A DNA stretch of 64,000 nt from Klebsiella pneumoniae (GTDB taxonomy: Bacteria > Pseudomonadota > Gammaproteobacteria > Enterobacterales > Enterobacteriaceae), in assembly GCF_000742135.1 (NCBI RefSeq), contig NZ_KN046818.1:4407447-4471446 (forward strand), read 5' to 3'. Each line of letters begins with the position of its first letter. The first letter of the stretch is position 1. The notes below the pieces were generated by a model. That model was not told the origin of the DNA, made no database searches, and saw only the letters and a program-made list of their open reading frames with translations. Below, piece after piece: positions 8,640-45,700 of the stretch. The translations under genes were made by a program, and so were the position numbers.

Positions 8640-8732
8640 TTTTATACTCTGGACTCTATGCAATGTAGAGTCCACCTATTTTCTCCAGAATATTTCCCGC
8701 CCTTTTTATCTACCCGTGTCGATGAGGGAATT

Positions 8733-10160: not shown

Positions 10161-10182
10161 CCTTTATTTTGTGAGAAAGAAA

Positions 10183-11169: not shown

Positions 11170-11208
11170 CTTTGTTCATAAATAAAAATATATTTATGGA
11201 GAGATTAG

Positions 11209-12225: not shown

Positions 12226-12258
12226 ATGCTCATACCATGTATAGAAGGTGGTGATGCT

Positions 12259-13320: not shown

Positions 13321-13346
13321 TTTAGACTAAATCTTTTTGGATTCAT

Positions 13347-14447
13347 ATGAAAAAACTAATCATAGTTAATGAAGTTTGTTCCGATAATATTGGTGATCAT
13401 GCTATAAATTTAGGGGTGTTGAAGATATTAGATGAATATAATTTTAAGGGCATAAGTTATGGATTCGATGCTGAGAAAAAAAATGTAGGGCCTAAAATAA
13501 AAAAATCAAAGAAAGAATCTAGTTTCATTCGATTTTTAAAGTTTATAAAAAATAAAACATTGAAAAATAATAGATTTTATAAATATTCCCTGTGGCTTTT
13601 AAGGAATTATTCTAGGGTATCCAGTATAACTAAACAAAATAAAGGGCAAGCGATAATAATAGGGGGAGGCCAGTTGATCCAGTCTGGAGGAACTTTTGCT
13701 ATTGCCATGTACACATGGACACTTTTTTCTAAGCTACGTAATGTAGATATATATATCATTGGTGTTGGGTGCGCTGAGCATTTTGATAGAATAGATCGGT
13801 TCTTGTTCAAGCGCTCGTTATCAAGAGCGAAGGGTATATTAGTCCGTGAAAAGAGTTCTATAAGTAAAATAAAAGATTTCTTTGATTGTGATGTAAGATA
13901 TATTCCTGATCTTGCATATGCATTATTTAAACAAGATGATTATAACCACAAAAAAGACAATTTAGCCATTATAGGTTGCACTGCTTATTATGTTTATATG
14001 AAAAACATAAACGAATTGGGTCTGAAAGATATTATGACCTTTGAGCAATATATAAATGCTTGGATTTCAATTATTTTAGACGAATGTAATGAGCACAGAG
14101 TATTACTTCTATCTACTACCGTTGAAGACGCTGAGTTTAGTCGTATCGTGTATAACCAAATAAGTAAGAACTATATTCATTTATTGGATCGTATAATAAT
14201 TAAAGATGAAGTGTTGCCTGTCCGTGAATATATTGAATTACTGAAAACTGCAAAAATAGTACGTTCTGGGCGCATGCATTCACTAATTCTTGGTCATATT
14301 AGTGGATGCAAATGTATTCCATATAATATAAATAAAAAAATAGAACATTTTTCGCATGAGTATTTGGACCATGATGCATCAAATATAAGCAAGAGTGTTT
14401 ACAACTCATTTGGTAATGCATTTTCCGGTGATAAAGGGAGTAAGTAA
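13347..14447 (+). CDS. Polysaccharide pyruvyltransferase family protein
   Basis: The 366-aa protein matches the polysaccharide pyruvyl transferase family (PF04230, CsaB/WcaK-like), which adds a pyruvate ketal from phosphoenolpyruvate to a sugar. Visible features are the N-terminal NIGDHAINLGVL, GGGQ at residues 106-109, the REKSS loop, and the C-terminal GRMHS (308-312) typical of the family. It implies a pyruvylated sugar in the capsule repeat, adding negative charge. Its stop is directly followed by the next ATG (14448), so the two are probably translationally coupled. Confidence 0.9.
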   Translation: MKKLIIVNEVCSDNIGDHAINLGVLKILDEYNFKGISYGFDAEKKNVGPKIKKSKKESSFIRFLKFIKNKTLKNNRFYKYSLWLLRNYSRVSSITKQNKGQAIIIGGGQLIQSGGTFAIAMYTWTLFSKLRNVDIYIIGVGCAEHFDRIDRFLFKRSLSRAKGILVREKSSISKIKDFFDCDVRYIPDLAYALFKQDDYNHKKDNLAIIGCTAYYVYMKNINELGLKDIMTFEQYINAWISIILDECNEHRVLLLSTTVEDAEFSRIVYNQISKNYIHLLDRIIIKDEVLPVREYIELLKTAKIVRSGRMHSLILGHISGCKCIPYNINKKIEHFSHEYLDHDASNISKSVYNSFGNAFSGDKGSK

Positions 14448-15608
14448 ATGATAATTATGGACTTAATGGCGACTCAGTCATCGCCTGAAGCTGCATTTCA
14501 TGGTGGTGGTGAATATGCTAAATGTGTTTTCTATGCTGCAATTAAGAATGGGTATAAAGATTTCACAGGAATATATAATAATACTTTAAATCTTGATCCC
14601 GACATTACTTTTTTATGCAATCAGAATAATATAACATTAATACCCGTCTCTTCATCGGCAGAGTTGGTTAAAATCGTTAACTCTCATCCAGGTTCTATAT
14701 TTTACTCTGCATTGCCGTATGCTTTAAATGGTATTGATACTTCAATCATTAACTTTATAATTACAATCCATGGCTTAAGAGAGCTTGAGTGTCCATATGA
14801 TGAAGTTGTATGGGATTATACTCATGGTCTTAAAAACAAATTAAAAGTATTTCTGAAAAACTATGTATTCAAGTCATACTTCTTAGATAAAGTTAAAAGT
14901 AACTTTGAGAAAATAGCTGTAAAGAAAAATGTAAAAATATTTACAGTATCTAATCATTCAAAATATTCAATATTAAGTTTTTTTCCGACTATCGATAAAG
15001 ATGATATTTTGGTTTTTAGAGCTCCATGTCCATTTGGACCGCATGAGCCAGAGTGTAAAAACCATAATCTTTTGTCTTTAGGTGGACGAAAATTTTTTTT
15101 AATGGTAAGTGGCAATCGGTGGCAGAAGAACATAGTTAGAGCTCTACGTGCATTAGATAACTATTTTGATAAAATAGCTGATTGTGATTTAAAAGTAATC
15201 ATTACAGGTAGTAAATCACCATTAATAAAATTACGTAATGATAAACGCTTTATATTCATCGATTATGTCGAAGGAAGTACATTAGATTGGCTTTATAAGA
15301 ATGCATTTTGTTTTATTTATCCCTCTTTAAATGAAGGATATGGTTATCCGCCATTACAGGCCATGAGGTACGGTACACCCGTAATTGCATCTTGCACATC
15401 AAGTATTCCAGAAGTATGTGCAGATAATGTACTATATTTTGATCCAAGGAATATAAGCGAAATCGAAAATCGAATTCTGCAATTATCTACAGATGGTGAA
15501 CTTTATAATAAACTAGCTTTGAAGGGGAGCGAGCATTATAAAAAGATATTACAATCACAGGACAAAGATCTATCTAAATTACTAAGGGGTATTTTTGAGG
15601 CACGTTAA
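14448..15608 (+). CDS. Glycosyltransferase, GT4 type (capsule)
   Basis: This 386-aa GT-B glycosyltransferase starts at the base after the pyruvyltransferase stop. The N-terminal half includes a Gly-rich loop (AAFHGGGEYAK) and TVSNHSKYSI. The C-terminal half has MVSGNRWQKN and NEGYGYPPLQAMRYGTPVIA. The E-x7-E motif of retaining GT4 enzymes appears as E-x7-Q, so the second acidic residue is replaced. Some active Wbd-type mannosyltransferases vary here, so the gene is not called inactive. Donor unknown; mannose is plausible given manCB. Confidence 0.87.
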   Translation: MIIMDLMATQSSPEAAFHGGGEYAKCVFYAAIKNGYKDFTGIYNNTLNLDPDITFLCNQNNITLIPVSSSAELVKIVNSHPGSIFYSALPYALNGIDTSIINFIITIHGLRELECPYDEVVWDYTHGLKNKLKVFLKNYVFKSYFLDKVKSNFEKIAVKKNVKIFTVSNHSKYSILSFFPTIDKDDILVFRAPCPFGPHEPECKNHNLLSLGGRKFFLMVSGNRWQKNIVRALRALDNYFDKIADCDLKVIITGSKSPLIKLRNDKRFIFIDYVEGSTLDWLYKNAFCFIYPSLNEGYGYPPLQAMRYGTPVIASCTSSIPEVCADNVLYFDPRNISEIENRILQLSTDGELYNKLALKGSEHYKKILQSQDKDLSKLLRGIFEAR

Positions 15609-15667
15609 TCTTTTATTTAAAAATATTTCCTTTATATTTTCAAAGTCTTTAATGATAATGGAAAGTT

Positions 15668-17095
15668 ATGTCTAAAAACAAAACGTTGTCTGGAGGGGTT
15701 GCTTGGTTTTTCATTAGTAATCTATTTCCTGCTATAAGTGCTCTTTTAATATTTTCTTTAGCTTCAAGATTAATATCCCCATCAGAGTTAGGAACAGTAG
15801 CTCTAGCAACAACTATTGCTACGGTGCTTACTAGTTTATGTGCAGTAGGTTTCGGAGATGCATTAATTCAATGTAAAGAGATAACCAAAAGACATCTGAA
15901 TACGGTTTTTACAGTATGCATTTGTGTTTCATTATTTGTCTATGTTATCTCTGTAACCTTGATTGAGACAATCAACCTAGATGCCTTTACTCATTTATTT
16001 AGGGTGGTTTATCCCTTAACTGCGTTTAAAATAATACTAGATTCTTGTGCAATCGTACCATTAAGTTATTTAACACGAACAATGGAATTTAAATCTATTG
16101 CATTAAGGACGATGTATTGCTCTCTTGCCTCTTTTATTTTATGTATCCCTATTCTTTATTACGGAGGAGGGGTGTGGGCAATTGTCGTCAGCCAATTGAC
16201 GACACCAGCTGTAAGTTTTTTAATATTAATTAAAGCAGCCAATCTTAAATTAAGAGTTGCTTTTCATCGTAAGGAATTTAATGAATTAAAAAAATTTGGA
16301 TTGACGTCAACAATTACTAAGTTGATTACGTCTATCAGTGTTGATAATCTCATGATTGGCTTTTATGGTAATGCAATTACCCTTGGTTTATATGCTTTTA
16401 GTCGACGTATTTTTGGAGTTATTTCTGACGTATTAAATAATGCCATTGCGAACGTTTCTTATCCTTTATATGCATCCAAACAAGATAATCTTAATGAGTT
16501 AAAAATCATTTTCCTAAAAACAACATTTCTTTCAGCACTTATCAGTTTGCCTGCATTTTGTGGTTTGATACTGATTTCGCCGTATCTGATTCCTATGGTT
16601 TTTGGTAATCAATGGGAGCCAGCTATCTCTGTTGTTCAAGTATGTAGTGCTATTGGTTTTATTTCCTGTATTGGTGCATTACAAATGTCATTGATAAAGG
16701 GATTAGGTCATACTTCTTGGATACTCAAGTATCAAATAGCACAACAAGTTTCAACTGCTATATTGGTACTGATTTTTGCAAAGGATGGAGCATATATAGT
16801 AATGTTAGCTATAGCAATAAAAACTTTTTCTATCTGGCCTTTTTCTATGCGCTATGTATCAAAAATATTGGGAGTAGGTATAGTCGATTATATGAGATAC
16901 TTTGTTAAACCAATTTTAGCGGTTTCGGCAATGATTACAGTTTGTGTTATAATTGAATGTATTACAAAAGATTATGGCTCGTTAGTTATTCTGTTGAGCG
17001 TTATTTTAGGGGGCGTTATTTCCTATATATTAAGTGCCTTTTTATTGGCAAGAAAGGAAACCTTTGATTTTATAAAGGCAATTAAAAAAAGATAG
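15668..17095 (+). CDS. wzx: Wzx, capsule repeat-unit flippase
   Basis: The 475-aa integral membrane protein has about 12-14 hydrophobic segments along its whole length and the MOP-superfamily polysaccharide flippase pattern (N-terminal GVAWFFISNLFPAISALLIF, then SRLISPSELGTVALA). Wzx moves the undecaprenyl-linked repeat to the periplasmic face for Wzy. As usual for serotype-specific flippases the gene is very AT-rich. It lies next to wzy, which supports the assignment. Confidence 0.92.
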   Translation: MSKNKTLSGGVAWFFISNLFPAISALLIFSLASRLISPSELGTVALATTIATVLTSLCAVGFGDALIQCKEITKRHLNTVFTVCICVSLFVYVISVTLIETINLDAFTHLFRVVYPLTAFKIILDSCAIVPLSYLTRTMEFKSIALRTMYCSLASFILCIPILYYGGGVWAIVVSQLTTPAVSFLILIKAANLKLRVAFHRKEFNELKKFGLTSTITKLITSISVDNLMIGFYGNAITLGLYAFSRRIFGVISDVLNNAIANVSYPLYASKQDNLNELKIIFLKTTFLSALISLPAFCGLILISPYLIPMVFGNQWEPAISVVQVCSAIGFISCIGALQMSLIKGLGHTSWILKYQIAQQVSTAILVLIFAKDGAYIVMLAIAIKTFSIWPFSMRYVSKILGVGIVDYMRYFVKPILAVSAMITVCVIIECITKDYGSLVILLSVILGGVISYILSAFLLARKETFDFIKAIKKR

Positions 17096-17140
17096 TTTAA
17101 TCAACGTGTTTAATTATTTTATATATAACGAGAGACCTTT

Positions 17141-18367
17141 ATGTCCATCGATTATTTTGCGGATCGCTATAGAAATATAGCATTTAAATATAAGCATATA
17201 TTATGCTTTTTATCTTTACTTTGTGTTGCGTTCGCAGTTTTTGATGGTTTTCGCGGGACGCAATATAAGCCTTACTTCCCATTTGCGTTTTTAAGAGACT
17301 TGTCTGTTTTTGTGGGGGGAGGGCTAGGTTTTTTTATAATCGCAAAAATTAAAATACAAAAAAGCTTTGCCTTATTGGTTTTTTTGCAGATTTTTATTTG
17401 CGCTTATTCATTTTTCACTAGTTTTTTGGTTTCAGATAAAGCCGTATTCGTTAGGCAATTGACTTTAGGTGGGGGCATTGGATTTTGGTCCAAAATGTTA
17501 AGCATGATTTGTATTTGTTTCCTTACATATGCTTATATTTACGTGTCCGGGAAAAAAGCTGTTGAAAAAATATTTAAGTGTTTTATTTATTGTTCATTTC
17601 TCTATTCGTTGCTCACCATTATATTGTATTTGTTTTTACCGTCTCTTTATGCATCCTTACCAAGGCAATGGTACGGTCGAATATCTATTGGTTATCCGAC
17701 TCAAGATGTTTATGTTTTAGCTATTTCGCTAGTGTTACTTCTGGAGAATATATTAAACAAAACTCTTTCAATATTAATTTCTGCGGTAAATGTAAGCTGT
17801 ATTATCATGCAGAACACATTTACAGGCTATATTCTTATTGTGTTCGTGTTTTTTATTTATTTTATCCGATTTGGTTTTTTTAGCAAGGCATTAATATTAT
17901 CTTTAGGTTTCTTTTTGCTCATGTTTGTTTTTTATATCTATAAAAACTATGAGGTCTTTGGCAATTTTGGTGTTTTGATTAAGGTGAAGGCTGATTCACT
18001 TATTCTAGGCGGCACGGATGACCCATCTTTTTATTTAAGATTGCAGCAAATAGCAATGATGATGAAGTCGTTATTTTCAGACTGGATATTTGTATTATTT
18101 GGCTATGGAGGGATTGGTGGTTTTTCTGTTGAGTCGGGAGTATATTCAACTTTAGCATTTTCAGGAGTATTAGGCATTATAATATATGTGTTTACGATTC
18201 TATACTTCCTTTTTCTCTCGATTAAAAATAAAAGCTTCATCCTTTTTTCCATACCATCAATGTACATTCTTTCATCTTTTTCAATCAGCCCAATATATTT
18301 AATGTCTACATATTGGACTTTGGGTTTTTTAATAGCCTATCAATCTTTTGTTGATGAGGTTAAATAA
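17141..18367 (+). CDS. wzy: Wzy, capsule repeat-unit polymerase
   Basis: The 408-aa protein is almost entirely hydrophobic, with about 10-12 predicted membrane helices and a larger polar loop in the middle. This architecture, its place after wzx, and the presence of wzc identify it as the Wzy polymerase that joins repeat units at the periplasmic face. Sequence conservation in this family is very low, so the call rests on topology and position. AT-rich with rare codons, as typical of transferred serotype genes. Confidence 0.85.
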   Translation: MSIDYFADRYRNIAFKYKHILCFLSLLCVAFAVFDGFRGTQYKPYFPFAFLRDLSVFVGGGLGFFIIAKIKIQKSFALLVFLQIFICAYSFFTSFLVSDKAVFVRQLTLGGGIGFWSKMLSMICICFLTYAYIYVSGKKAVEKIFKCFIYCSFLYSLLTIILYLFLPSLYASLPRQWYGRISIGYPTQDVYVLAISLVLLLENILNKTLSILISAVNVSCIIMQNTFTGYILIVFVFFIYFIRFGFFSKALILSLGFFLLMFVFYIYKNYEVFGNFGVLIKVKADSLILGGTDDPSFYLRLQQIAMMMKSLFSDWIFVLFGYGGIGGFSVESGVYSTLAFSGVLGIIIYVFTILYFLFLSIKNKSFILFSIPSMYILSSFSISPIYLMSTYWTLGFLIAYQSFVDEVK

Positions 18368-18585
18368 TGTTATTGTGTTTGCATTAGCAAAATTGTTGTT
18401 CTGCAAATCTTCTGATTTGAATTCCTATTTTCTATTTCAGAAGATGAATAAATTCTAAAATATGCGTGTTATTAATTTATTTTTATGAATGTATGTCATT
18501 TATGATCGTCCATATATCTTTGCACGGTGATGCTGGTTAAGACTTAGACATTTAATTAAATTATGGTAACTGAGATGGTGGTTAT

Positions 18586-19740
18586 ATGAAAACGGACATT
18601 AACATTGGTGTCGTGGCTGATTGGTTTATCACTTATGCTGGTTCAGAAAAGGTTGTCGCTGAGTTTTTAAGTTTATTTCCTAAATGCGAGCTTTACGCTG
18701 TTGTGGATTTTCTCTCTCAAGAGAATAAATTACATTTTCAGAATAAAGTAATAACAACTACTTTCATTCAAAACTTGCCTAAAGCACGTACAAAATACCA
18801 GTCATACTTACCATTTATGCCACTGGCAATTGAACAGCTTGATGTCTCTAAGCATGATGTAATACTTTCTAGTAGCCATGCAGTCGCTAAGGGCGTGCTT
18901 ACAGGACCTGACCAACTTCACATAAGTTATGTTCATTCTCCTATTCGTTATGCATGGGATTTGCAACATCAGTACTTGAGAGAGGCTGGATTGAGTAAGG
19001 GAGTGAAAGCTCTCTTGGCTCGGTGGATATTACATAAAATAAGGATGTGGGATTCCCGGACTGCAAATGGTGTAGACCATTTCATTGCTAATTCTAATTT
19101 TATTGCGCGTCGTATAAAAAAAGTCTATGGCAGGAATGCGGATGTTATATATCCTCCTGTTGATGTCGACAACTTCACATTTCAAGAAGAGAAGGAAGAA
19201 TATTATTTTACGGCATCTCGTTTGGTTCCGTATAAACGTATTGATTTGATTGTTGAGGCATTTAGTTGTATGCCAGGAAGAAAACTTGTTGTTGTCGGTG
19301 ACGGACCCGAAATGAGAAAGATAAAAAATAAAGCAACAAAAAACATAGATATTCTAGGCTACCAGTCAAATGAGGCTATGCGGGAGTATATGCAAAAAGC
19401 AAAAGCATTTGTTTTTGCGGCCGAAGAAGATTTTGGCATTACCCCGGTTGAGGCCCAGGCGTGTGGAACACCTGTTATTGCCTTTGGTAAAGGTGGATCT
19501 TTGGAAACAGTAAGACCATATGGAGTAAGCAATCCTACTGGTATTTTATTTGAAAACCAAGATATACAATCTATAATTAACGGTGTTGATTTATTTGAAC
19601 GTGTATGCGATGAAATTAGTCCTGGAGATTGTAGAAAGCATGCTGTAAAATTTTCCATTGATAGATTTCGTAATGAAATAAATGATTATGTTCTAGAAAA
19701 ATATAACAAATTCTTAGATGCGAAAAAAATAAATTATTAA
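18586..19740 (+). CDS. wbaZ: WbaZ-like mannosyltransferase (GT4)
   Basis: This 384-aa GT4 glycosyltransferase resembles WbaZ, the mannosyltransferase often placed just before gnd in Klebsiella K loci. Features include the N-terminal ADWFITYAGSEKVV loop, the conserved ISYVHSPIRYAWD, SRLVPYKRIDLIV, and donor motif EDFGITPVE (E-x7-E) with ACGTPVIAFGKGG. It would use GDP-mannose made by ManC/ManB downstream. A 218-bp gap separates it from wzy; a 561-bp gap follows. Symbol given by family resemblance. Confidence 0.85.
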   Translation: MKTDINIGVVADWFITYAGSEKVVAEFLSLFPKCELYAVVDFLSQENKLHFQNKVITTTFIQNLPKARTKYQSYLPFMPLAIEQLDVSKHDVILSSSHAVAKGVLTGPDQLHISYVHSPIRYAWDLQHQYLREAGLSKGVKALLARWILHKIRMWDSRTANGVDHFIANSNFIARRIKKVYGRNADVIYPPVDVDNFTFQEEKEEYYFTASRLVPYKRIDLIVEAFSCMPGRKLVVVGDGPEMRKIKNKATKNIDILGYQSNEAMREYMQKAKAFVFAAEEDFGITPVEAQACGTPVIAFGKGGSLETVRPYGVSNPTGILFENQDIQSIINGVDLFERVCDEISPGDCRKHAVKFSIDRFRNEINDYVLEKYNKFLDAKKINY

Positions 19741-24904: not shown

Positions 24905-26071
24905 ATGAAAATTACTATTTCCGGTACAGGTTATGTTGGTTTATCGAACGGTGTCCTGATTGCGCAAAACCACGAAGTGGTTGCTCTGGATATCGTACAG
25001 GCCAAAGTGGATATGCTTAACCAGAAGATCTCTCCGATTGTGGATAAAGAGATTCAGGAATATCTGGCAGAAAAACCGTTAAATTTCCGTGCCACCACGG
25101 ACAAGCACGACGCCTATCGTAATGCCGACTACGTGATTATTGCGACGCCGACCGATTACGATCCCAAAACCAACTACTTCAACACCTCTACGGTGGAAGG
25201 GGTTATTCGCGATGTCACTGAGATCAACCCGAACGCGGTGATGATCATTAAATCGACCATCCCTGTGGGGTTCACCCGCGACATCAAAGAACGTTTAGGG
25301 ATTGATAATGTTATTTTCTCTCCTGAGTTCTTGCGTGAAGGCCGTGCGCTGTACGACAACCTGCACCCGTCACGCATTGTCATTGGTGAGCGCTCTGCGC
25401 GTGCCGAACGTTTCGCTGACCTGCTGAAAGAAGGCGCGATTAAGCAGGATATCCCGACCCTGTTTACCGACTCCACCGAAGCGGAAGCGATCAAACTGTT
25501 CGCGAACACCTATCTGGCGCTGCGCGTTGCCTATTTCAACGAGCTCGACAGCTATGCTGAAAGCCAGGGGCTAAACAGCAAGCAGATTATCGAAGGGGTA
25601 TGCCTGGATCCGCGTATCGGCAACCACTACAACAACCCGTCCTTTGGCTATGGCGGCTACTGCCTGCCAAAAGATACCAAGCAGCTGCTGGCGAACTACG
25701 AATCGGTCCCGAACAACATTATCGCGGCTATCGTCGATGCCAACCGTACCCGTAAAGACTTTATTGCGGATTCTATTCTTGCCCGCAAGCCTAAAGTGGT
25801 GGGTGTGTATCGCCTGATCATGAAGAGCGGGTCAGACAACTTCCGTGCCTCTTCTATTCAGGGCATCATGAAGCGCATCAAGGCGAAAGGTATCCCGGTT
25901 ATTATCTATGAACCGGTGATGCAGGAAGATGAGTTCTTCAACTCCCGTGTCGTGCGCGACCTGGATGCCTTCAAACAAGAGGCGGATGTGATCATTTCTA
26001 ACCGTATGGCGGAAGAGCTGGCTGATGTGGCAGACAAGGTTTACACCCGCGATCTGTTTGGTAATGATTAG
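24905..26071 (+). CDS. ugd: UDP-glucose 6-dehydrogenase
   Basis: Ugd oxidises UDP-glucose twice to UDP-glucuronate using NAD+, feeding capsule uronic acid and core or lipid A pathways. The 388-aa protein has the N-terminal Rossmann motif [10 protein letters not shown], central [11 protein letters not shown], and the catalytic loop [13 protein letters not shown] with the thioester-forming Cys. Length is normal. By convention it is the right boundary of Klebsiella K loci. A fragment of another ugd 3' end lies 1.25 kb downstream. Confidence 0.98.
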
Positions 26072-26086
26072 GATTTTTAACCTTTA

Positions 26087-26108
26087 GCTGGATGAGAGTA
26101 TCTCCAGC
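26087..26108 (+). terminator. Hairpin after ugd
   Basis: GCTGGA (26087-26092) pairs with TCCAGC (26103-26108), followed by CAAATTTTAT. A short stem with an AT-rich tail just after the ugd stop; possible weak terminator. Confidence 0.4.
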
Positions 26109-26264
26109 CAAATTTTATATGAAATTGGATTCCATTGATGTTAATTAACCTATGGGCTTGGTTATAAAGTTAGTTATTTACGGCTAATGAGTTTTCTCTG
26201 GTGATATAAACTAATTTTGTAGAACATCAATGCTGCCAATCGAGTATTTATCAGGAGTTCAAGT

Positions 26265-27272
26265 ATGAAATTTTTAGTCACAGGTGCGGCTGGTTTTATT
26301 GGGTTTCATGTCAGCAAACGCCTTTTGAATGATGGGCATCAAGTTGTTGGGATTGATAACATTAATGATTATTATGATGTAAAGTTAAAAGAATCTCGTC
26401 TTGAACAATTAGAATCTCCCTCTTTTACTTTTTACAAGTTAGATCTCGCTGACCGTGATGGTATGTCTAAACTTTTCGAAACGGAGCAGTTTGAACGTGT
26501 TATCCATCTTGCGGCTCAAGCGGGTGTACGTTATTCTCTCGAAAATCCATATGCTTATGCAGACTCCAATTTAACGGGCTATCTGAATATTTTGGAAGGT
26601 TGCCGTCACAATAAAGTGCAACATCTATTATATGCTTCATCCAGTTCTGTCTACGGTCTAAACCGTAAAATGCCATTCTCAACAGATGATTCAGTCGACC
26701 ACCCCGTTTCGTTGTATGCTGCCACAAAAAAAGCTAATGAGCTGATGGCACATACTTATTCCCATCTGTACAGCATCCCAACGACAGGACTGCGTTTCTT
26801 TACGGTCTATGGTCCCTGGGGCCGTCCGGACATGGCGTTATTCAAATTCACGAAAGCGATGCTGGAAGGGAAAAGCATTGATGTTTATAACTACGGTAAA
26901 ATGAAGCGTGATTTTACCTATATAGATGATATTGTCGAAGCTATTGTTCGTATCCAGGATGTAATCCCTCAGCCTGATCCTGAATGGACAGTCGAGGAAG
27001 GATCTCCGGCTACCAGCTCCGCGCCATATCGGGTCTACAACATTGGTAACAGCTCACCGGTGGAACTGATGGATTATATCAATGCATTGGAGCAGGCATT
27101 GGGATTGGAAGCGAAGAAGAATATGATGCCTATCCAGCCGGGTGATGTGTTGAATACCAGTGCCGAGACACAAGCTCTCTATGAAACTATCGGTTTTAAA
27201 CCGGAAACGCCAGTACAGCAAGGTGTTAAAAACTTTGTAGATTGGTATAAAGAGTACTATCAATATAACTAG
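26265..27272 (+). CDS. uge: UDP-glucuronate 4-epimerase (extra copy)
   Basis: The 335-aa extended SDR epimerase interconverts UDP-glucuronate and UDP-galacturonate. It has NAD motif GAAGFIG (7-13), SSSSVYG (125-131), and catalytic Tyr151/Lys155 in YAATK. CAGGAG precedes the ATG. It closely resembles the second uge at 28363-29367 (opposite strand), by eye about 85 percent identical in protein with most changes in the N-terminal half and near the C-terminus. It is AT-richer, especially at its 5' end, and lies between ugd and a ugd remnant, suggesting it arrived with the K locus. It would allow galacturonic acid in the capsule. Confidence 0.92.
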
Positions 27273-27324
27273 TTTATTGGAAGGGGGGGATAGAAACGTT
27301 TTCGCGCCTCCCTCATACCGACAG

Positions 27325-27419
27325 CAAGTAGCGGATGTATCATTTCCAACCGTATGTTGGAAAAGCGGGCGGATGTTGCGGACAAGGTATACACCCGCGA
27401 TCTGTTTGATAACGATTAA
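27325..27419 (+). pseudogene. Remnant of a second ugd 3' end
   Basis: This segment aligns with the last ~95 bp of the intact ugd (25973-26071). After one single-base deletion near 27338-27340, it reads in frame as [16 protein letters not shown] then stop, against [16 protein letters not shown] in the intact gene. No start, promoter or body of ugd precedes it. Differences from the intact copy show it derives from a diverged allele. It marks the stump left when a K locus with its own ugd and uge recombined into the chromosome. Confidence 0.88.
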
Positions 27420-27841
27420 TTCTGCCTGTCTGACCCTGGCGGTTCCCTGCCGCCAGTATGCTTCTTTATCTCCCCGCTCTATCCCTCACTACGCGTATTT
27501 CTCGCACATTCAGATTAACCTCAATAAATTGTGATGGACATTACGATCTTGTACGAAACCCGTTGCGGGCGCAGAACAGGTCCGATAAGTTAAACTTACC
27601 TTGTGAAGAGCTACCGTCACTGTGATGTAGATGCCGGAGATAAGCGCCGGGAGGTAAAACAAAGCCTGCAACGCAGGCTTTTGTTATTTCTGTGTGCAGG
27701 GAAAATGATGAGCATGGCCAGCCAAGAGTGCTTTTCTCATGCCTTTATGCCATGGCAAATCACAGAATGAATAGTCATTCTGTCATAAAGTTATTTTATC
27801 TCTTAATATTATCTTAATGTCATTGTAATATGAAGCCAGCC
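27420..27841 (+). other. Junction intergenic region
   Basis: No protein gene is supportable here. It includes a hairpin CTGGCGG (27436-27442) / CCGCCAG (27450-27456) right after the ugd remnant, probably the old ugd terminator, and a strong terminator at 27661-27682. The 100-120 nt leading to that terminator contain no gene on either strand that it obviously serves, so a small RNA is possible but unproven. AT content rises after 27780. Confidence 0.4.
27661..27682 (+). terminator. Intrinsic terminator
   Basis: AAAGCCTGC (27661-27669) and GCAGGCTTT (27673-27681) form a perfect 9-bp stem with loop AAC and flanking A and T runs, so it could act in both directions. On the minus strand it would lie downstream of nothing recognised except read-through past the small ORF at 27842; on the plus strand it follows the ugd remnant region. 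Confidence 0.65.
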
Positions 27842-27964
27842 TTACCACTTACGTTTATTAAACGTCAGTTTCGTTTTTTTTCTGTCTTTTAAATAAGAAA
27901 TTAAAAAATAAACGGAAATAGCAAGTAGTATGGCAGCCACCACTAAGAAAAATAGGTTTTCCAT
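27842..27964 (-). CDS. Predicted 40-aa single-pass small membrane protein
   Basis: Reading the minus strand gives a 40-codon frame beginning MENLFFLVVAAILLAISVYF and ending in a basic tail (LKDRKKTKLTFNKRKW). One hydrophobic helix (about residues 4-24) followed by Lys/Arg-rich residues predicts an inner-membrane peptide with its C-terminus in the cytoplasm. Only a weak ribosome site (GGTAG) precedes the ATG. Klebsiella genomes carry annotated small membrane proteins of this kind near the capsule locus, but the function is unknown. The compact hydrophobic-basic layout argues against chance. Confidence 0.6.
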   Translation of the reverse strand: MENLFFLVVAAILLAISVYFLISYLKDRKKTKLTFNKRKW

Positions 27965-28327
27965 AATATCTACCACATAGCGTATGTTGATTAAATTATT
28001 AGCTTGATAAGCAATGCGCCAGTTTTGTTCTGTAGCATGGCTTGCTCTAACATATCCTGGATTTAGGAAAATTCCTACAGAGTGTAATGTTTTTTATTAC
28101 TCAGTATTTCATGCTACTTTTTCGATTGGAAACGGCATGGATACAGCCGAAGTGCAGTACTGTGGCATGTGGAGATTTGCTTTTTTAACAAAGGCTGGAT
28201 GAAACTGGTTTCAGTTAGGCCAACTAAAGGGTAAAAAATATGCTATAGCATAAAATATTATATATAACGTAATGCAGCTGCAGTTGATTCACATAACGTA
28301 AGAGTATGCAGAGTAGCTGCAAGAAGT
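27965..28327. other. AT-rich intergenic region
   Basis: No gene is supported between the small membrane-protein ORF and the uge terminator. A 62-codon frame on the plus strand (28014-28202) lacks family features, a ribosome site and a hydrophobic or charged pattern expected of a real protein. Promoter elements for the small minus-strand ORF would lie here, but none is clear. Confidence 0.4.
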
Positions 28328-28351
28328 TGCCGCAACCTGACGATTGCGGCA
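28328..28351 (-). terminator. uge terminator hairpin
   Basis: TGCCGCAA (28328-28335) pairs with TTGCGGCA (28344-28351) with an 8-nt loop, a few bases beyond the stop of the minus-strand uge. Only a poor T-run follows in the minus direction. Confidence 0.5.
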
Positions 28352-28362
28352 GGGCAGGGGGA

Positions 28363-29367
28363 TTAGATCTGATAGTAATCCTTGTACCACTCCACGAAGT
28401 TCTTCACGCCTTCCTTCACTGACGTTTGCGGCTTAAAACCCACCAGGTCATACAGCGCTTGGGTGTCTGCGCTGGTGTCCAGCACATCGCCCGGCTGGAT
28501 CGGCATCATATTCTTCTTCGCTTCCATTCCCAGCGCCTCTTCCAGGGCGGTGATGTAGTCCATTAGTTCCACCGGTGAGCTGTTGCCAATGTTATATACC
28601 CGATACGGCGCGGAGCTGGTGGCCGGGGAACCGCTCTCAACGGTCCAGTCGGCATTGGCCTGCGGGATCACATCCTGCACCCGAACCACCGCCTCGACGA
28701 TGTCGTCGATATAGGTGAAGTCGCGCTTCATTTTGCCGTAGTTGTAAACGTCGATACTTTTTCCTTCCAGCATCGCTTTCGTGAACTTGAACAGCGCCAT
28801 ATCCGGGCGACCCCACGGACCATACACTGTAAAGAAGCGCAGCCCGGTGGTCGGGATGCCGTACAGGTGAGAATAGGTGTGCGCCATCAGCTCATTAGCT
28901 TTCTTGGTGGCGGCATACAAGGAGACCGGATGATCGACGGAATCTTCGGTGGAGAACGGCATTTTACGGTTGAGGCCGTAAACCGAGCTGGAGGAGGCGT
29001 ACACCAGGTGTTTCACCTTGGTATGACGGCAGCCTTCCAGAATGTTCAGATACCCCATCAGGTTAGCGTCTGCGTAGGCATACGGGTTTTCGAGTGAGTA
29101 GCGCACACCGGCCTGGGCGGCCAGGTGGATCACGCGATCAAATTGCTCTGTGGCGAACAGCTTTGCCATACCTTCACGGTCGGCCAGATCCAGCTGCTGG
29201 AAATGGAATGCCGGAGAAGCCAGGCGATCCAGACGGGCCTGCTTCAGGCTGACGTCATAATAGTCGTTCATGTTGTCGATTCCGACAACATCATGCCCTT
29301 CATTCAACAGGCGCTGCGCGATATGGAAGCCGATAAAACCTGCGGCACCAGTGACCAAAAACTTCAT
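28363..29367 (-). CDS. uge: UDP-glucuronate 4-epimerase (resident copy)
   Basis: The 334-aa SDR epimerase makes UDP-galacturonate from UDP-glucuronate; in Klebsiella, Uge is needed for galacturonic acid in LPS core and for capsule in some strains. It has NAD motif [22 protein letters not shown], and Tyr/Lys of YAATK. A strong Shine-Dalgarno (GGAGGAAAAAT) precedes the ATG. GC content is typical of the chromosome. It sits in its usual place beside the O-antigen locus but points toward the capsule genes, forming a diverged inverted repeat with the extra copy at 26265. Confidence 0.95.
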
Positions 29368-30430
29368 ATTTTTCCTCCGGGGTGTGGATATCCCGTTCTA
29401 CATAAGTGCCGATTTTACACTGGCTTGCGGTTGGGATCACTTGGTTTACCATGACAAGATATGCAAGTACCTGTAAACAGCGGCGTCAGAGAGTAAATGT
29501 CATGTAATTAATTATCATTCGCGAAAGACATTAAGACATTCAGAAGTTGAAAATAATATAAAACCCAATATAAACAATGGGTTGGGTGTTTGCTTCGGTA
29601 TTATCGAGTATTACGAGGTTTAGACGCGGTCTGGCCTCGTAGAGTAAAGATGGTTACTTTAGTTTGCCCGGTGTGTTTGTTTGCCGAGAGCTCATTTAGC
29701 GATAATGCCATGATATCGTCTAAAGTGTGTCCATTTTTACATTGAAAAAGCCATGCACCGGATTTTTACTTTAATTCCTTACTTGCAGAGTTATAATACG
29801 CTGCCGTTCTATTTAGCAGACTTAGGTATTGCTTGATAAATCATCACCAAAAGTAAATCAGTAAGTTGGCAGCATTACCCAAAAGTTGTTATTAATATGC
29901 AAGAAATTATTTCAGAATTTCATGCTGTCCTTAGATGGTTCTTTTGCATGTAAGGGCGTGATGAGCAGGCGAGGGGAGTGCTACGCCAGGCATGCTGCTT
30001 GCGGAAATGAGAAAGTCCTGATAGCTAACGGAGAAGGGAAACGCCAGAGTAAAGCCTTTTTGTAGCTAAGGTAACGAGATGCATGGCTGTACTAAACAGT
30101 AATGCCATCTGCAGTGCGGTTTGAACGGATGTGAGTGCTAAAAACTCGGTGGATCACGCATTTTGGTTGCGATAGCCAATGGCGGTAGCGTGGAAGAAAA
30201 CATAAGGTGATTTTTTAATTTATTGAATTAAAAGGGTTTTTATCGTTTATGGCTGGGGTGTCGCTTGCGCTTCCGTTCAAATCATTGGTTGCAGTCGATG
30301 AATGGCAGCTGACCTGATAAACTTTGCCCGCAGCACAAAGCAGTCAGTTTCTCGATGGTTGAGCCTGACAGGATCGGCGAGGTAGACCTGGTATGACTAA
30401 CTCATTCAGTGGATATTTGCAGAATAATTT
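29368..30430 (+). other. uge-wzm intergenic region
   Basis: This 1063-bp gap between divergent uge and wzm has no supportable gene. It should contain the uge promoter (close to 29400-29450) and the O-antigen promoter. A JUMPstart-like element with a perfect ops core lies at 30163-30192, leaving about 240 nt of leader to wzm. The middle is AT-rich, as expected for an H-NS target. I could not assign -10/-35 boxes with confidence. Confidence 0.5.
30163..30192 (+). promoter_or_regulatory. ops / JUMPstart-like element (O-antigen operon)
   Basis: GGCGGTAGCGT at 30181-30191 is identical to the ops core upstream of wzi. The preceding bases (TTGGTTGCGATAGCCAAT) resemble the middle of JUMPstart. It implies RfaH recruitment and antitermination for wzm-wbbO, as known for other LPS operons. 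Confidence 0.88.
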
Positions 30431-31210
30431 ATGAGTATAAAGATGAAGTACAATTTAGGGTATTTATTTGATTTACTTGTTGTGATAACAAATAAAGATC
30501 TAAAAGTGCGCTATAAGAGCAGCATGCTAGGCTATTTATGGTCAGTAGCAAATCCATTGCTTTTTGCCATGATTTATTATTTTATATTTAAGCTGGTAAT
30601 GAGAGTACAAATTCCAAATTATACAGTTTTCCTCATTACCGGCTTGTTTCCGTGGCAATGGTTTGCCAGTTCGGCCACTAACTCATTATTTTCATTCATC
30701 GCTAACGCTCAAATTATCAAGAAGACAGTTTTTCCCCGGTCCGTGATTCCGCTAAGTAATGTGATGATGGAAGGCTTGCATTTTCTTTGCACCATCCCGG
30801 TTATTGTTGTCTTTCTTTTTGTTTATGGCATGTCGCCGTCCTTGTCCTGGGTTTGGGGTATACCTCTCATTGCTATTGGCCAGGTGATTTTCACCTTTGG
30901 TGTTTCAATCATCTTTTCAACGCTGAACCTGTTTTTCCGTGACCTGGAGCGCTTTGTAAGTCTGGGGATTATGCTGATGTTTTATTGTACGCCGATTTTA
31001 TATGCGTCTGATATGATTCCGGAAAAATTTAGCTGGATAATTACCTACAATCCGCTAGCGAGTATGATTCTTAGTTGGCGTGATTTATTCATGAATGGGA
31101 CTCTTAATTATGAGTATATTTCTATACTCTATTTTACGGGAATCATTTTGACGGTTGTCGGTTTGTCTATTTTCAATAAATTAAAATATCGATTTGCAGA
31201 GATCTTGTAA
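30431..31210 (+). CDS. wzm: Wzm, O-antigen ABC transporter permease
   Basis: The 259-aa protein has six hydrophobic segments of the ABC-2 polysaccharide exporter permease family. With Wzt it moves finished undecaprenyl-linked galactan to the periplasm. The start yields MSIKMKYNLGYLFDLLVV; a second ATG at 30443 is also possible, and neither has a strong ribosome site. Its TAA overlaps the wzt ATG. It is the first gene of the D-galactan I operon, about 240 bp after ops. Confidence 0.95.
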   Translation: MSIKMKYNLGYLFDLLVVITNKDLKVRYKSSMLGYLWSVANPLLFAMIYYFIFKLVMRVQIPNYTVFLITGLFPWQWFASSATNSLFSFIANAQIIKKTVFPRSVIPLSNVMMEGLHFLCTIPVIVVFLFVYGMSPSLSWVWGIPLIAIGQVIFTFGVSIIFSTLNLFFRDLERFVSLGIMLMFYCTPILYASDMIPEKFSWIITYNPLASMILSWRDLFMNGTLNYEYISILYFTGIILTVVGLSIFNKLKYRFAEIL

Positions 31211-31950
31211 TGCACCCAGTTATTAACTTCAGTCATGTTACAAAAGAGTATCCTCTGTACCATCATATTGGCTCAGGAATCAAAGATTTAATTTTCCATC
31301 CGAAACGCGCTTTTCAGTTGCTGAAGGGGCGGAAATATTTAGCTATCGAAGACGTATCCTTTACAGTTGGCAAAGGTGAGGCTGTTGCCCTGATTGGACG
31401 TAATGGGGCAGGAAAGAGTACCTCTCTTGGTCTGGTTGCCGGCGTGATTAAGCCAACTAAGGGAACCGTCACCACTGAAGGACGGGTGGCATCGATGCTT
31501 GAACTCGGCGGAGGATTTCATCCGGAACTTACCGGGCGTGAGAATATTTACCTGAATGCTACTCTGCTGGGCCTTCGACGTAAAGAGGTCCAACAACGTA
31601 TGGAACGTATTATTGAATTTTCGGAACTGGGAGAATTCATCGACGAGCCCATCAGAGTATATTCAAGCGGAATGCTAGCTAAGTTAGGTTTTTCGGTCAT
31701 CAGTCAGGTTGAACCGGATATTTTAATTATTGATGAAGTTCTGGCAGTAGGTGATATCGCTTTTCAGGCTAAATGTATTCAGACCATCAGAGATTTTAAG
31801 AAAAGAGGCGTGACGATACTGTTTGTTAGCCACAATATGAGTGACGTTGAAAAAATCTGCGATAGAGTCATCTGGATCGAAAATCATAGACTCAGAGAAG
31901 TGGGGTCTGCCGATCGAATCATTGAACTGTACAAGCAAGCAATGGCTTAA
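31210..31950 (+). CDS. wzt: Wzt, O-antigen ABC transporter ATPase
   Basis: The 246-aa ABC ATPase powers Wzm. Visible are Walker A GRNGAGKST (63-71), signature YSSGM (151-155) and Walker B ILIIDE (171-176), with the D-loop AVGD. It has no C-terminal carbohydrate-binding domain, unlike the ~430-aa Wzt of O8/O9a. This fits the galactan I system, where export does not require recognition of a capped chain end. Start and wzm stop overlap (TAATG). Confidence 0.96.
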   Translation: MHPVINFSHVTKEYPLYHHIGSGIKDLIFHPKRAFQLLKGRKYLAIEDVSFTVGKGEAVALIGRNGAGKSTSLGLVAGVIKPTKGTVTTEGRVASMLELGGGFHPELTGRENIYLNATLLGLRRKEVQQRMERIIEFSELGEFIDEPIRVYSSGMLAKLGFSVISQVEPDILIIDEVLAVGDIAFQAKCIQTIRDFKKRGVTILFVSHNMSDVEKICDRVIWIENHRLREVGSADRIIELYKQAMA

Positions 31951-31965
31951 TCATTGGGTAATATA

Positions 31966-33861
31966 ATGAACAATAGCGTTAAAATCTATACCAGCCACCA
32001 TAAGCCTAGTGCTTTTCTTAATGCTGCAATTATCAAACCTCTGCATGTCGGCAAAGCTAATTCTTGTAATGAAATTGGTTGTCCAGGAGATGACAGTGGC
32101 GATAATATTTCTTTTAAGAATCCGTTTTATTGCGAACTAACTGCGCATTATTGGGTTTGGAAAAACGAAGAGCTGGCAGACTATGTCGGTTTCATGCACT
32201 ATCGCCGTCATCTTAATTTTTCCGAAAAACAAACTTTTTCTGAGGATACCTGGGGGGTCGTGAACCATCCATGCATTGATGAAGAATATGAGAAGATCTT
32301 TGGATTAAACGAAGAAACAATTCAACGGTGTGTCGAAGGTATTGACATCTTGCTGCCAAAAAAATGGTCTGTCACTGCGGCGGGAAGTAAAAATAATTAC
32401 GATCACTATGAACGAGGTGAATACTTACACATTCGTGATTATCAGGCTGCCATTGCCATCGTTGAAAAACTATATCCAGAGTATAGCACGGCAATAAAAA
32501 CATTTAATGATGCCAGTGATGGCTATTACACAAATATGTTTGTCATGCGCAAAGATATTTTTGTTGACTATTCTGAGTGGCTCTTTTCCATTCTGGATAA
32601 TCTCGAAGATGCCATCTCGATGAACAATTATAATGCCCAGGAAAAACGCGTTATTGGGCATATAGCTGAACGGCTGTTTAATATTTACATAATTAAGCTG
32701 CAACAAGATGGTGAGCTTAAGGTAAAAGAATTACAGCGTACCTTTGTCAGCAATGAAACATTCAATGGTGCACTGAATCCAGTTTTTGATTCTGCGGTTC
32801 CAGTGGTTATCAGTTTCGATGATAATTACGCAATCAGCGGTGGCGCATTAATTAATTCCATTATCCGACATGCGGACAAAAATAAAAATTATGATATCGT
32901 CGTACTCGAAAACAAAGTTAGCTATTTGAATAAATCCCGGTTGGTAAATCTAACCTCTGCTCATCCGAATATTTCTCTTCGTTTTTTTGACGTTAATGCC
33001 TTCACTGAAATTAACGGTGTGCATACCCGAGCGCATTTTAGCGCATCAACGTATGCCCGTCTTTTTATTCCTCAACTGTTCAGACGATACGATAAAGTCG
33101 TATTTATTGATTCGGATACCGTTGTAAAGGCAGACCTGGGTGAACTGCTTGATGTCCCTCTGGGCAACAATTTAGTTGCAGCGGTTAAGGATATCGTCAT
33201 GGAAGGTTTTGTAAAATTTTCTGCAATGTCGGCATCAGATGATGGCGTTATGCCGGCAGGCGAATATTTACAAAAAACCTTAAACATGAATAACCCTGAT
33301 GAATATTTTCAGGCAGGGATTATTGTTTTTAATATCAAACAAATGATCGAAGAAAATACTTTTGCTGAATTGATGCGTGTATTAAAGGCAAAAAAATACT
33401 GGTTCCTCGACCAGGATATCATGAATAAAGTATTCTACTCTCGAGTCACATTTCTGCCATTAGAGTGGAACGTTTATCATGGTAATGGCAACACGGATGA
33501 TTTCTTCCCTAATCTTAAGTTTGCAACGTATATGAAATATTTAGCAGCTCGCAAGAAGCCTAAAATGATTCATTATGCGGGTGAGAACAAACCATGGAAT
33601 ACTGAAAAAGTTGATTTTTACGACGACTTTATTGAAAACATCGCTAACACTCCATGGGAGATGGAAATCTATAAACGTCAGATGTCGTTAGCGGCTTCGA
33701 TTGGTTTAACCCATAGCGAGCCGCAACAACAAATCTTGTTCCAGACCAAAATCAAGAACGTATTGATGCCTTATGTTAATAAATATGCACCAATAGGCAC
33801 GTCAAGAAGAAACATGATGACTAAATATTATTATAAAGTACGCCGTGCTATTCTTGGATAA
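31966..33861 (+). CDS. wbbM: WbbM, galactan I galactosyltransferase (two domains)
   Basis: WbbM polymerises D-galactan I, [-3)-beta-D-Galf-(1-3)-alpha-D-Galp-(1-]. In the 631-aa protein the N-terminal half (about 5-230) is a DUF4422-type domain (KIYTSHHKP, then FMHYRRHL). The C-terminal half is a GT8 domain with VVISFDDNYAISGG and the metal-binding FIDSDT near residue 380. The ATG at 31966 was preferred over TTG 31954. It follows wzt closely and is followed by glf after 15 bp. Confidence 0.94.
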   Translation: MNNSVKIYTSHHKPSAFLNAAIIKPLHVGKANSCNEIGCPGDDSGDNISFKNPFYCELTAHYWVWKNEELADYVGFMHYRRHLNFSEKQTFSEDTWGVVNHPCIDEEYEKIFGLNEETIQRCVEGIDILLPKKWSVTAAGSKNNYDHYERGEYLHIRDYQAAIAIVEKLYPEYSTAIKTFNDASDGYYTNMFVMRKDIFVDYSEWLFSILDNLEDAISMNNYNAQEKRVIGHIAERLFNIYIIKLQQDGELKVKELQRTFVSNETFNGALNPVFDSAVPVVISFDDNYAISGGALINSIIRHADKNKNYDIVVLENKVSYLNKSRLVNLTSAHPNISLRFFDVNAFTEINGVHTRAHFSASTYARLFIPQLFRRYDKVVFIDSDTVVKADLGELLDVPLGNNLVAAVKDIVMEGFVKFSAMSASDDGVMPAGEYLQKTLNMNNPDEYFQAGIIVFNIKQMIEENTFAELMRVLKAKKYWFLDQDIMNKVFYSRVTFLPLEWNVYHGNGNTDDFFPNLKFATYMKYLAARKKPKMIHYAGENKPWNTEKVDFYDDFIENIANTPWEMEIYKRQMSLAASIGLTHSEPQQQILFQTKIKNVLMPYVNKYAPIGTSRRNMMTKYYYKVRRAILG

Positions 33862-33864
33862 TAA

Positions 33865-35921
<2,057 letters not shown>

Positions 35922-35933
35922 GTGGGCATAGCA

Positions 35934-37067
35934 ATGAGAAAACTGTGTTATTTCATAAATTCGGATTGGTACTTCGATTTACACTGGATCGATCGTGCCA
36001 TCGCCTCCCGTGATGCAGGTTATGAGATTCACATCATCAGCCATTTTATTGATGACAACATAATAAATAAATTCAAAACATTCGGCTTTATTTGCCATAA
36101 TGTTACTCTTGATGCTCAATCTTTTAATGCATTAGTTTTCTTTCGTACTTACCATGATGTGCAAAAAATTATTAAAAATATAAAACCGGATCTCTTGCAT
36201 TGCATCACTATCAAGCCATGTTTGATTGGTGGTGTGCTCGCGAAGAAATTTAATCTGCCGGTCATCGTAAGTTTTGTTGGGCTTGGAAGAGTATTTTCTT
36301 CAGACAGCATGCCTTTAAAATTATTACGGCAGTTTACTATTGCTGCATATAAATATATTTCCAGTAATAAGCGCTGTATATTTATGTTTGAACATGACCG
36401 TGACAGAAAAAAACTGGCTAAGTTGGTTGGACTCGAAGAACAACAGACTATTGTTATTGATGGTGCAGGCATTAATCCAGAGATATACAAATATTCTCTT
36501 GAACAGGATCACGATGTCCCTGTTGTATTGTTTGCCAGCCGTATGTTGTGGAGTAAAGGACTGGGCGACTTAATTGAAGCGAAGAAAATATTACGCAGTA
36601 AGAATATTCACTTTACTTTGAATGTTGCTGGAATTCTGGTCGAAAATGATAAAGATGCAATTTCCCTTCAGGTCATTGAAAATTGGCATCAGCAAGGATT
36701 AATTAACTGGTTAGGTCGTTCGAATAACGTTTGCGATCTTATTGAGCAATCAAATATCGTTGCTTTGCCGTCAGTTTATTCTGAAGGTGTTCCGCGAATT
36801 CTTCTGGAAGCATCTTCTGTGGGTCGCGCTTGTATTGCTTATGATGTCGGTGGTTGTGATAGCCTTATTATTGATAATGATAATGGAATTATTGTTAAAA
36901 GCAATTCACCTGAAGAGTTGGCTGATAAACTTGCCTTTTTGCTTAGCAATCCTAAAGCACGCGTTGAAATGGGTATTAAAGGACGTAAGCGTATTCAGGA
37001 TAAATTCTCGAGTGGGATGATTATTAGTAAAACGCTAAAGACTTATCATGATGTGGTTGAGGGATAG
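35934..37067 (+). CDS. wbbO: WbbO, galactosyltransferase of D-galactan I
   Basis: WbbO is the 377-aa GT4 enzyme that adds the first Galp and Galf residues to the lipid-linked GlcNAc primer. Motifs are ASRMLWSKGLGDLIEA and donor site SEGVPRILLEAS (E-x7-E). ATG 35934 gives the known 377-aa length; a GTG at 35922 directly after the wbbN stop is in frame but less likely. A 122-bp gap separates it from the last gene of the cluster. Confidence 0.95.
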   Translation: MRKLCYFINSDWYFDLHWIDRAIASRDAGYEIHIISHFIDDNIINKFKTFGFICHNVTLDAQSFNALVFFRTYHDVQKIIKNIKPDLLHCITIKPCLIGGVLAKKFNLPVIVSFVGLGRVFSSDSMPLKLLRQFTIAAYKYISSNKRCIFMFEHDRDRKKLAKLVGLEEQQTIVIDGAGINPEIYKYSLEQDHDVPVVLFASRMLWSKGLGDLIEAKKILRSKNIHFTLNVAGILVENDKDAISLQVIENWHQQGLINWLGRSNNVCDLIEQSNIVALPSVYSEGVPRILLEASSVGRACIAYDVGGCDSLIIDNDNGIIVKSNSPEELADKLAFLLSNPKARVEMGIKGRKRIQDKFSSGMIISKTLKTYHDVVEG

Positions 37068-38609: not shown

Positions 38610-39202
38610 TTACCTATGCCGTGCTCTTAAATTATCAATCACTTCCCCGAGATCCAGCCCCTGGTCCTGCAGCAGCACCAGCAGGTGATACATCAGGTCC
38701 GACGCCTCATTCTTCAGCTCGAAGCGGTCGTTCACGGTGGCGGCCAGCGCGGTCTCCACGCCTTCTTCCCCCACTTTCTGCGCAATACGCTTGGTGCCGC
38801 TGGCATACAGCTTCGCCGTGTAGGAGCTCTCCGGGTCGGCGTGTTTACGCTCGGCCAGCAGCTGCTCCAGCTGATAGAGGAACAGCCACTGGTGGCCGGT
38901 TTCGCCGAAGCAGCTGGTGGTGCCTTTGTGGCAGGTCGGCCCGATCGGGTTTACCAGCACCAGCAGCGTATCGTTGTCACAGTCCGGCGTGATGCTCACT
39001 ACATTGAGGACATGGCCCGAGGTTTCACCCTTGGTCCACAGCCGCTGCTTGGTGCGCGAGTAAAAGGTGACCTTGCCGGTGGCTTCGGTTTTCTCCAGCG
39101 CCTCCTTGTTCATGTAGCCGTGCATCAGCACTTCGCCGGATACGGCGTGCTGCACGATGGCCGGCATCATGCCGTCCGTTTTTTCCCAGTCCAGCTGTTC
39201 AG

Positions 39203-39209
<7 letters not shown>
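38610..39209 (-). CDS. hisI: HisIE, phosphoribosyl-AMP cyclohydrolase / phosphoribosyl-ATP pyrophosphatase
   Basis: The bifunctional 199-aa enzyme does steps 2 and 3 of histidine synthesis. The N-terminal cyclohydrolase half has the Zn-binding residues in [12 protein letters not shown], and the [12 protein letters not shown] stretch. The C-terminal half is the helical pyrophosphatase ([10 protein letters not shown]). Last gene of the his operon; it overlaps hisF by 7 bp. Confidence 0.98.
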
Positions 39210-44714
<5,505 letters not shown>

Positions 44715-44753
44715 GATTGTATTCCCCTGTGTGTCCTGTGACCGGCTGGCCGA

Positions 44754-45653
44754 TTACTCCATCATTTTCTCAATCGGCAGCACCAGAATGGAGCTGGCGC
44801 CCAGCGCCTTCAGTTTTTCCATGGTCTCCCAGAACAGGGTTTCGCTGCTGACCATGTGCATCGCCACGCGCTGCTTGTCGCCTGCCAGCGGCAGAATAGT
44901 CGGCCGCTCGGCGCCCGGCAGCAGGGCAACCACTTCTTCCAGGCGTTCGGTCGGGGCGTGCATCATGATGTATTTCGACTCGCGGGCCTGAATCACGCCC
45001 TGAATACGGGTCAGCAGGCGGTCAATCAGCTGCTGTTTGACGTCGGCCATTTCGCCGTCGCGCTGGATCAGACAGGCTTTGGAGCGGTAGATCACTTCCA
45101 CTTCGCGCAGGCCGTTAGCTTCCAGGGTGGCGCCGGTGGAGACGAGGTCGCAGATAGCGTCGGCGAGGCCGGCGCGCGGCGCCACTTCCACGGAGCCGTT
45201 CAGCAGACAGGATTTAAAGGAGATACCTTTTTGATCGAGGTAGCGCTTCAGCAGGTGCGGGTAAGAGGTGGCGATACGTTTGCCGTCCAGCGCCGCCGGG
45301 CCGTTCCAGGCTTCATCCACCGGAGTCGCCAGCGACAGGCGGCAGCCGCCGAAGTCGAGACGGCGCAGGGTGAAGTAGCGCGGGTCTTCGCCCTGGGCGC
45401 GGCGGCTGAGCAGCTCTTCTTCCAGCACGTTTTCGCCGATAATGCCGAGGTCGACAACACCGTCCATCACCAGGCCCGGGATATCGTCATCACGCACGCG
45501 CAGAATATCGATTGGCATATTTTCCGCCAGCGCAATCAGACGCTGGGTGTGCAAATTGACTTTAATGCCGCAGCGGCTGAGTAATTCGCGTGAATCTTCG
45601 CTTAAACGGCCTGATTTCTGAATAGCTATGCGTAAACGGGTGTTGTCTAACAT
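44754..45653 (-). CDS. hisG: HisG, ATP phosphoribosyltransferase
   Basis: The 299-aa long-form enzyme catalyses the first, feedback-inhibited step, joining ATP and PRPP. PRPP loop and active-site region read [16 protein letters not shown]; the C-terminal ACT-like regulatory domain covers about residues 225-299. It is the first structural gene after the hisL attenuator. Confidence 0.98.
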
Positions 45654-45700
45654 TGTTCTTTTCCTCTGAATACCTGTCTGAATCTGTCCGAATTTGGTCC

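Follow-up and report, generated by a model that had tools for sequence, protein, structure and literature searches.

The stretch of DNA analysed here (the window; 64,000 nucleotides, positions 4407447-4471446 of contig 1 in a 5.55 Mb genome of Klebsiella pneumoniae) contains a group 1 capsule locus. Its products with Pfam matches are a sugar transferase, glycosyltransferases, a glycosyl hydrolase family 5 match, a pyruvyltransferase and a flippase-family protein, and the one locus protein without a Pfam match is encoded by the gene carrying both sites of the published K3 wzy primer pair. The primers match with 0 mismatches, at 17452 and 18000, and predict a product of 549 bp, the published size; judged by these sites, the locus is of type K3. 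At its 3′ end the order is gnd, manC, manB, ugd, forward uge and then reverse uge, with gnd, manC and manB named by position and from aligned annotated loci. The two uge genes form the face-to-face pair of the K3 locus. The features considered below are as follows.

17141-18367, forward strand: wzy of type K3, which identifies the locus on the basis of the published primer pair
24905-26071, forward strand: ugd, UDP-glucose 6-dehydrogenase, an intact open frame
26072-26264, forward strand: ugd-uge intergenic stretch, found solely with the uge unit or its truncated forms
26265-27272, forward strand: forward uge (gla_KP), second copy, an open frame of 335 aa for a predicted UDP-glucuronate/UDP-galacturonate 4-epimerase
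27273-27324, forward strand: spacer of 52 bp from the uge stop codon to the stump
27325-27419, forward strand: decayed ugd 3′ end (the stump, a pseudogene fragment), recognised by alignment to the window's own ugd
27436-27456, forward strand: terminator-like hairpin after the ugd end
28363-29367, reverse strand: resident uge (gla_KP), which the literature places in LPS core synthesis (PMC3101168)

The initial annotation of this DNA had described an extra uge behind an intact ugd, an AT-richer uge region and, further on, about 95 bp of a ugd 3′ end with a one-base deletion, the ugd C-terminus and a stop codon. All of this is confirmed: both frames are open, GC content in the 500-bp bins from 26001 to 27500 is 0.37, 0.44 and 0.48, and 27325-27419 aligns to the last 95 bp of the window's own ugd with 81 identities, 13 mismatches and one 1-nt gap.

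By its sequence, the forward Uge is a member of the NAD-dependent epimerase family (Pfam Epimerase PF01370, E = 4e-56) close to Klebsiella Uge. The solved structure nearest to it in sequence, 5u4q (E = 4e-199), bears the depositor label dTDP-glucose 4,6-dehydratase and is possibly a misnamed Uge. Forward and reverse uge share 78% nucleotide and 85% amino acid identity. In a midpoint-rooted IQ-TREE phylogeny of 52 Uge proteins, 50 of them different (L079 was left out because the start motif gave no frame), the four forward copies form one group (support 100/99) and cluster with the copies from the genus Klebsiella (100/98), separately from the resident copies of the species complex (98/95). FastTree joined the forward uge and the species-complex uges at 0.81 and IQ-TREE did not settle the exact sister, so we claim only that the forward uge belongs to the genus group. 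Among 391 other genomes of the family, with two candidates scored per genome, no match to it exceeds 78%, and among 394 genomes of the order the ugd-uge intergenic stretch matches in the window's own genome alone; no donor was thus found outside the capsule loci described here.

The similarity of the stump to ugd is not due to chance, since its local alignment score is 118 and the maximum over 200 shuffles of 27272-28362 is 29. At E <= 0.001 the whole genome holds two DNA matches to ugd, the gene itself and the stump stretch, and no third. The stump had been read as the remnant of a diverged ugd; the homology is real, but the fragment is close to none of the intact ugd genes compared. Compared with 44 distinct intact ugd 3′ ends it differs from the nearest by at least 11 mismatches and one gap, and the window's own ugd is hardly worse than the best of them. 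Its closest relatives are other stumps, such as the one in the Escherichia coli locus L036 (4 mismatches and a 4-nt gap). Ten of the 44 intact ends, including those of the window and of the two Klebsiella genomes G013 and G015 discussed below, encode one and the same peptide over their last 31 residues. Counted against 10 near intact 3′ ends, eight of which encode identical last 31 residues and two of which are one residue off, the private differences of the stumps, amino-acid-changing to silent, are 6:3 in the window (plus the 1-nt gap), 4:2 in L036 and 4:3 in L033. This proportion suggests that the stump has been decaying without selection, and together with the distance to all 44 intact ends it leads us to reject a recent remnant of a living ugd allele. 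The stump is so short that its descent from one given ugd is unprovable, and its start at 27325 is approximate.

The genus was represented by 20 genomes, one per Klebsiella species, including the window's own. Two uge matches occur in the latter only; all 19 others have one, which faces ugd in 15 of the 15 genomes whose fetched stretch includes ugd (the other 4 stretches are without it). We therefore reject the ugd-uge-stump order as a general feature of Klebsiella, the finding that the initial annotation had named as speaking against a scar. Two of these genomes, G013 and G015, are informative about the state without the insert. Each has one intact ugd, the last 95 bp of which align to both 25977-26071 and 27325-27419, and this ugd continues uninterrupted into window-like sequence, 98.3% identical to 27325-31000 in G013 and 89.8% identical over 27325-29450 in G015. 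As anticipated for genomes lacking the extra uge, 26072-27324 is absent from both. Because ugd runs straight into the sequence from 27325 onwards, both genomes lack the insert, and in the window the stump is a residue of a ugd at that place. The stump is thus a recombination scar, as had been proposed: insert-free genomes have the gene intact, and the truncated copy is colinear with it and with the sequence that follows. Four records of a plasmid collection also matched: three were K. pneumoniae loci lacking the unit, and the fourth, from E. coli, had only the first 217 bases. Scans of the species-genome contigs for exact patterns gave no match. The intact ugd of the window is 92.8% identical to that of G013, 97.5% to that of G015 (where the alignment takes in manC-manB) and 75-88% to those of six other Klebsiella.

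The same unit is present in group 1 capsule loci of E. coli. A megablast search with 26072-27324 finds matches in 88 of the 5426 E. coli genomes; in 77 they span 80% or more of the length. By identity the 88 divide into 19 (95-99%), 31 (90-95%, including the partial matches H153 and H154), 8 (80-90%) and 30 (60-80%); the 20 listed of these last 30 match the uge gene alone, at 77-78%. The E. coli units are of two types. Type A accounts for the 19 of 5426 genomes that match at least 80% of 27200-27419, all 19 in the 95-99% band; the four matches listed have full coverage and 95.4% identity. The longer segment 26072-28362 is matched over at least 80% in 31 genomes; H1-H3 are of type A, and the 28 genomes H4-H31 are of type B and match in a single piece that extends through the stump. 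Base-by-base alignments cover the type A loci L035, L036, L067 and L071 and the type B loci L033 and L034. The single-base deletion of the stump is common to all four type A loci, which have nearly the spacer of the window and an additional 4-nt deletion of their own in the stump; type B lacks the single-base deletion, but has the join at the same position and a homologous spacer. A comparison of the A and B spacers scores 22 (shuffle mean 6.2, sd 3.1), a value reached in 1 of 2000 shuffles. The idea that the spacer is further decayed ugd was rejected, as 1821 and 1783 of 2000 shuffles scored as high against ugd upstream of the join. The forward uge is 98.6-98.9% identical in nucleotides to two type A copies and 95.4% to two type B copies. 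To the left of it, the intergenic stretch 26072-26264 is 90-91% identical in four unit-bearing E. coli loci, the window ugd is 95.7-96.7% identical to the ugd of four such loci, and its stop codon and 3′ flank match theirs.

These E. coli loci are not K3. The K3 core (8658-19740) finds matches in 18 of 5426 E. coli genomes, none over 80% and all in or around wbaP. The genes upstream of the unit vary as well: it stands behind manC-manB in L035, L036, L067 and L071, behind manC-manB-rml in L100 (from its annotation only) and behind rml alone in L033 and L034. Taken together, the varied upstream genes and the poor match to the K3 core indicate that the unit occurs with different capsule cores. 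Since the join is common to types A and B and their spacers are homologous, the stump was in the uge unit before the two types parted; and since E. coli loci with other cores have the same join (type A also the deletion and the spacer), the stump arrived with the donor uge unit. Some of the E. coli copies are damaged: the annotations give a frameshifted uge in L067 and one truncated next to IS1 in L066, and in L065 the intergenic stretch and the first uge codons alone are left, beside ISKpn26. Insertion sequences or their remnants (IS1, ISKpn26, IS66, IS21, IS30 and IS3) recur to the right of the unit in L034, L035, L036, L065, L066, L067, L071 and L100. The resident uge is partial in L033, and the stretches of L034, L035 and L036 have no annotation for it.

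The right edge of the last exchange lies beyond the stump. Between the window and G013 there are 17 differing positions in 27329-27443 and 2 in 27444-27700. At the last three differences (27427, 27435 and 27443) the window has the base of L036; at 27427 and 27443 this is also the base of G015, and at 27435 the window differs from both G013 and G015 and is shared with type A alone. At 27458, 27460, 27479, 27491 and further positions the window has the G013 base, and L036 and G015 have another. As the differences end after 27443 and G013-private bases start at 27458, this handful of sites places the edge at about 27444-27457, 25-38 bp to the right of the stump and in or at the terminator-like hairpin. 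G013 could itself be recombinant. At 27370 and 27422 the window agrees with G013 and G015 and L036 alone deviates, so type A is a relative and not the donor. Further to the right, identity to G013 per kb is 99.4-99.8% over 28001-33000 and 97.8-98.4% over 33001-37000, is interrupted at about 37.1-38.6 kb and amounts to 95.9-99.5% over 39001-49000. On the O-locus side (27458-33000) the window is thus more like the genome of this other species than it is in most of the region beyond, which may point to a recent exchange of the O locus too.

Some further elements lie between ugd and the reverse uge. The block 27574-27694 is conserved at 82-90% in ten genomes of other Klebsiella species and includes a hairpin (27661-27681) that is terminator-like on both strands. 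A sub-threshold match to the Rfam family rydB falls at 27596-27664 (32 bits, cut-off 50); rydB proper is found elsewhere in 19 of 20 genus genomes, and 7 of 20 have a weak second match at the block, which is possibly an undescribed small RNA. A small membrane protein gene lies at about 27843-27966 on the reverse strand, judged by annotation at the same place in L033, L034 and L036.

While the observations of the initial annotation hold, its interpretation is only partly supported. It had taken the stump for the resident ugd left behind by an incoming K locus, and 27325 for the exact right edge of that capsule exchange. The join is common to E. coli loci with other cores, and the switch to a G013-like background is at about 27444-27457; the stump is not the scar of this strain's own exchange. 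We consider it an old founder scar that moves with a ugd-uge-spacer-stump unit, and put the probability of this reading at about 0.8. In the founder, a capsule locus ending in ugd-uge would have been joined to a resident ugd some 95 bp short of the stop codon, so that the 3′ end of the resident gene was left as the stump. We infer this crossover and its direction; it would have been non-homologous or of very short homology. The joins held in common suggest that ugd, uge, spacer and stump then moved as one piece among capsule loci and between Klebsiella and E. coli, probably by ordinary homologous recombination in the flanks, with the stump decaying meanwhile in the absence of selection. The last such exchange in this K3 strain would have ended at about 27444-27457. 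As for function, Ugd is expected to make UDP-GlcA, which Uge would convert to UDP-GalA, and the forward uge was presumably kept because the K3 polysaccharide contains galacturonic acid.

The founding step could also have taken another form, for which we see roughly one chance in four. A piece with a ugd 3′ end and uge would have entered the resident ugd by a single crossover, giving a restored ugd, uge and the displaced 95-bp 3′ end as a direct repeat, followed by the same later history. A uge between two copies of the ugd 3′ end is the layout that such an event leaves, but no carrier or integrase is seen, and because the 52-bp spacer is not recognisably ugd the right join would still need a non-homologous step. 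Far less probable is that the arrival of this strain's own K locus made the junction at 27325, with the stump as the 3′ end of the recipient ugd. Colinearity with the intact ugd 3′ ends and downstream sequence of G013 and G015 is what such an arrival would leave; against it, E. coli loci with other cores have the join, the spacer and (type A) the deletion, and over its 95 bp the stump has 13 mismatches and a gap relative to G013, in contrast to the 99.4-99.8% identity per kb of the window over 28001-33000. We reject as highly improbable that the ugd-uge stretch was duplicated locally in tandem and that a deletion followed, a history which would account for two ugd ends and two uge genes inside 5 kb. 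The two uge genes stand face to face, are 22% different in DNA and belong to separate, well-supported tree groups, and the sequence 3′ of the intact ugd does not resemble that of five compared single-ugd Klebsiella loci.

The process behind the founder scar is ordinary capsule-locus recombination, and the extra uge of K3 was already known. In the available part of their report, Fevre et al. 2011 (PMC3101168) describe a second, face-to-face glaKP in the K3 locus, link it to the galacturonic acid in the K3 capsule and give the type strain ATCC 13883 as K3. As in the window, their forward uge/glaKP lies between ugd and the reverse uge and is proposed as the last K3 gene; that part of the report does not mention a ugd stump, and it reports a transposase gene in the locus, whereas the gnd-manC gap of the window (224 bp) is too small for one. 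The cps locus of Kp13, as far as the accessible text of its description goes (PMC3438125), likewise has a uge-1 directly behind ugd, its protein 97% like that of a rhinoscleromatis strain, and a second copy, uge-2; unlike in the window, wzx and wzy follow uge-1, and no stump is mentioned in that text. E. coli group 1 loci of Klebsiella type (PMC6128206) resemble the present case in having rearranged ends and remnants beyond ugd, but in the passages available the remnants are of O8/O9 O-antigen genes, gnd and wcaM, and the words uge and epimerase are absent from the main text. From the portions at hand, surveys of 2015 and 2016 (PMC4616057, PMC5359410) bound the K locus at ugd, and the 2015 survey has one UDP-galacturonate 4-epimerase among 79 clusters. 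A narrow literature search for a K-locus breakpoint near ugd, or for a partial, truncated or remnant ugd, found none. What is new is a scar shared between loci, which labels a mobile uge unit lying immediately beyond the galF-ugd interval of capsule typing.

Short as it is, this scar can serve to trace one lineage of capsule-locus ends in K. pneumoniae and E. coli. It also illustrates that a truncated gene at the edge of a locus need not show where the latest exchange ended, and that the proposed last gene of K3 is missed when typing stops at ugd. More tentatively, and with the odds somewhat against it, ugd-uge-stump might serve group 1 capsule loci as a portable galacturonate module at their 3′ end; flanked by ugd homology left and right, it would be swapped independently of the core and across genera. 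If so, the module would alter the supply of sugars to capsule or core from a position immediately beyond the typing interval galF-ugd, and the stump would be its tracer.
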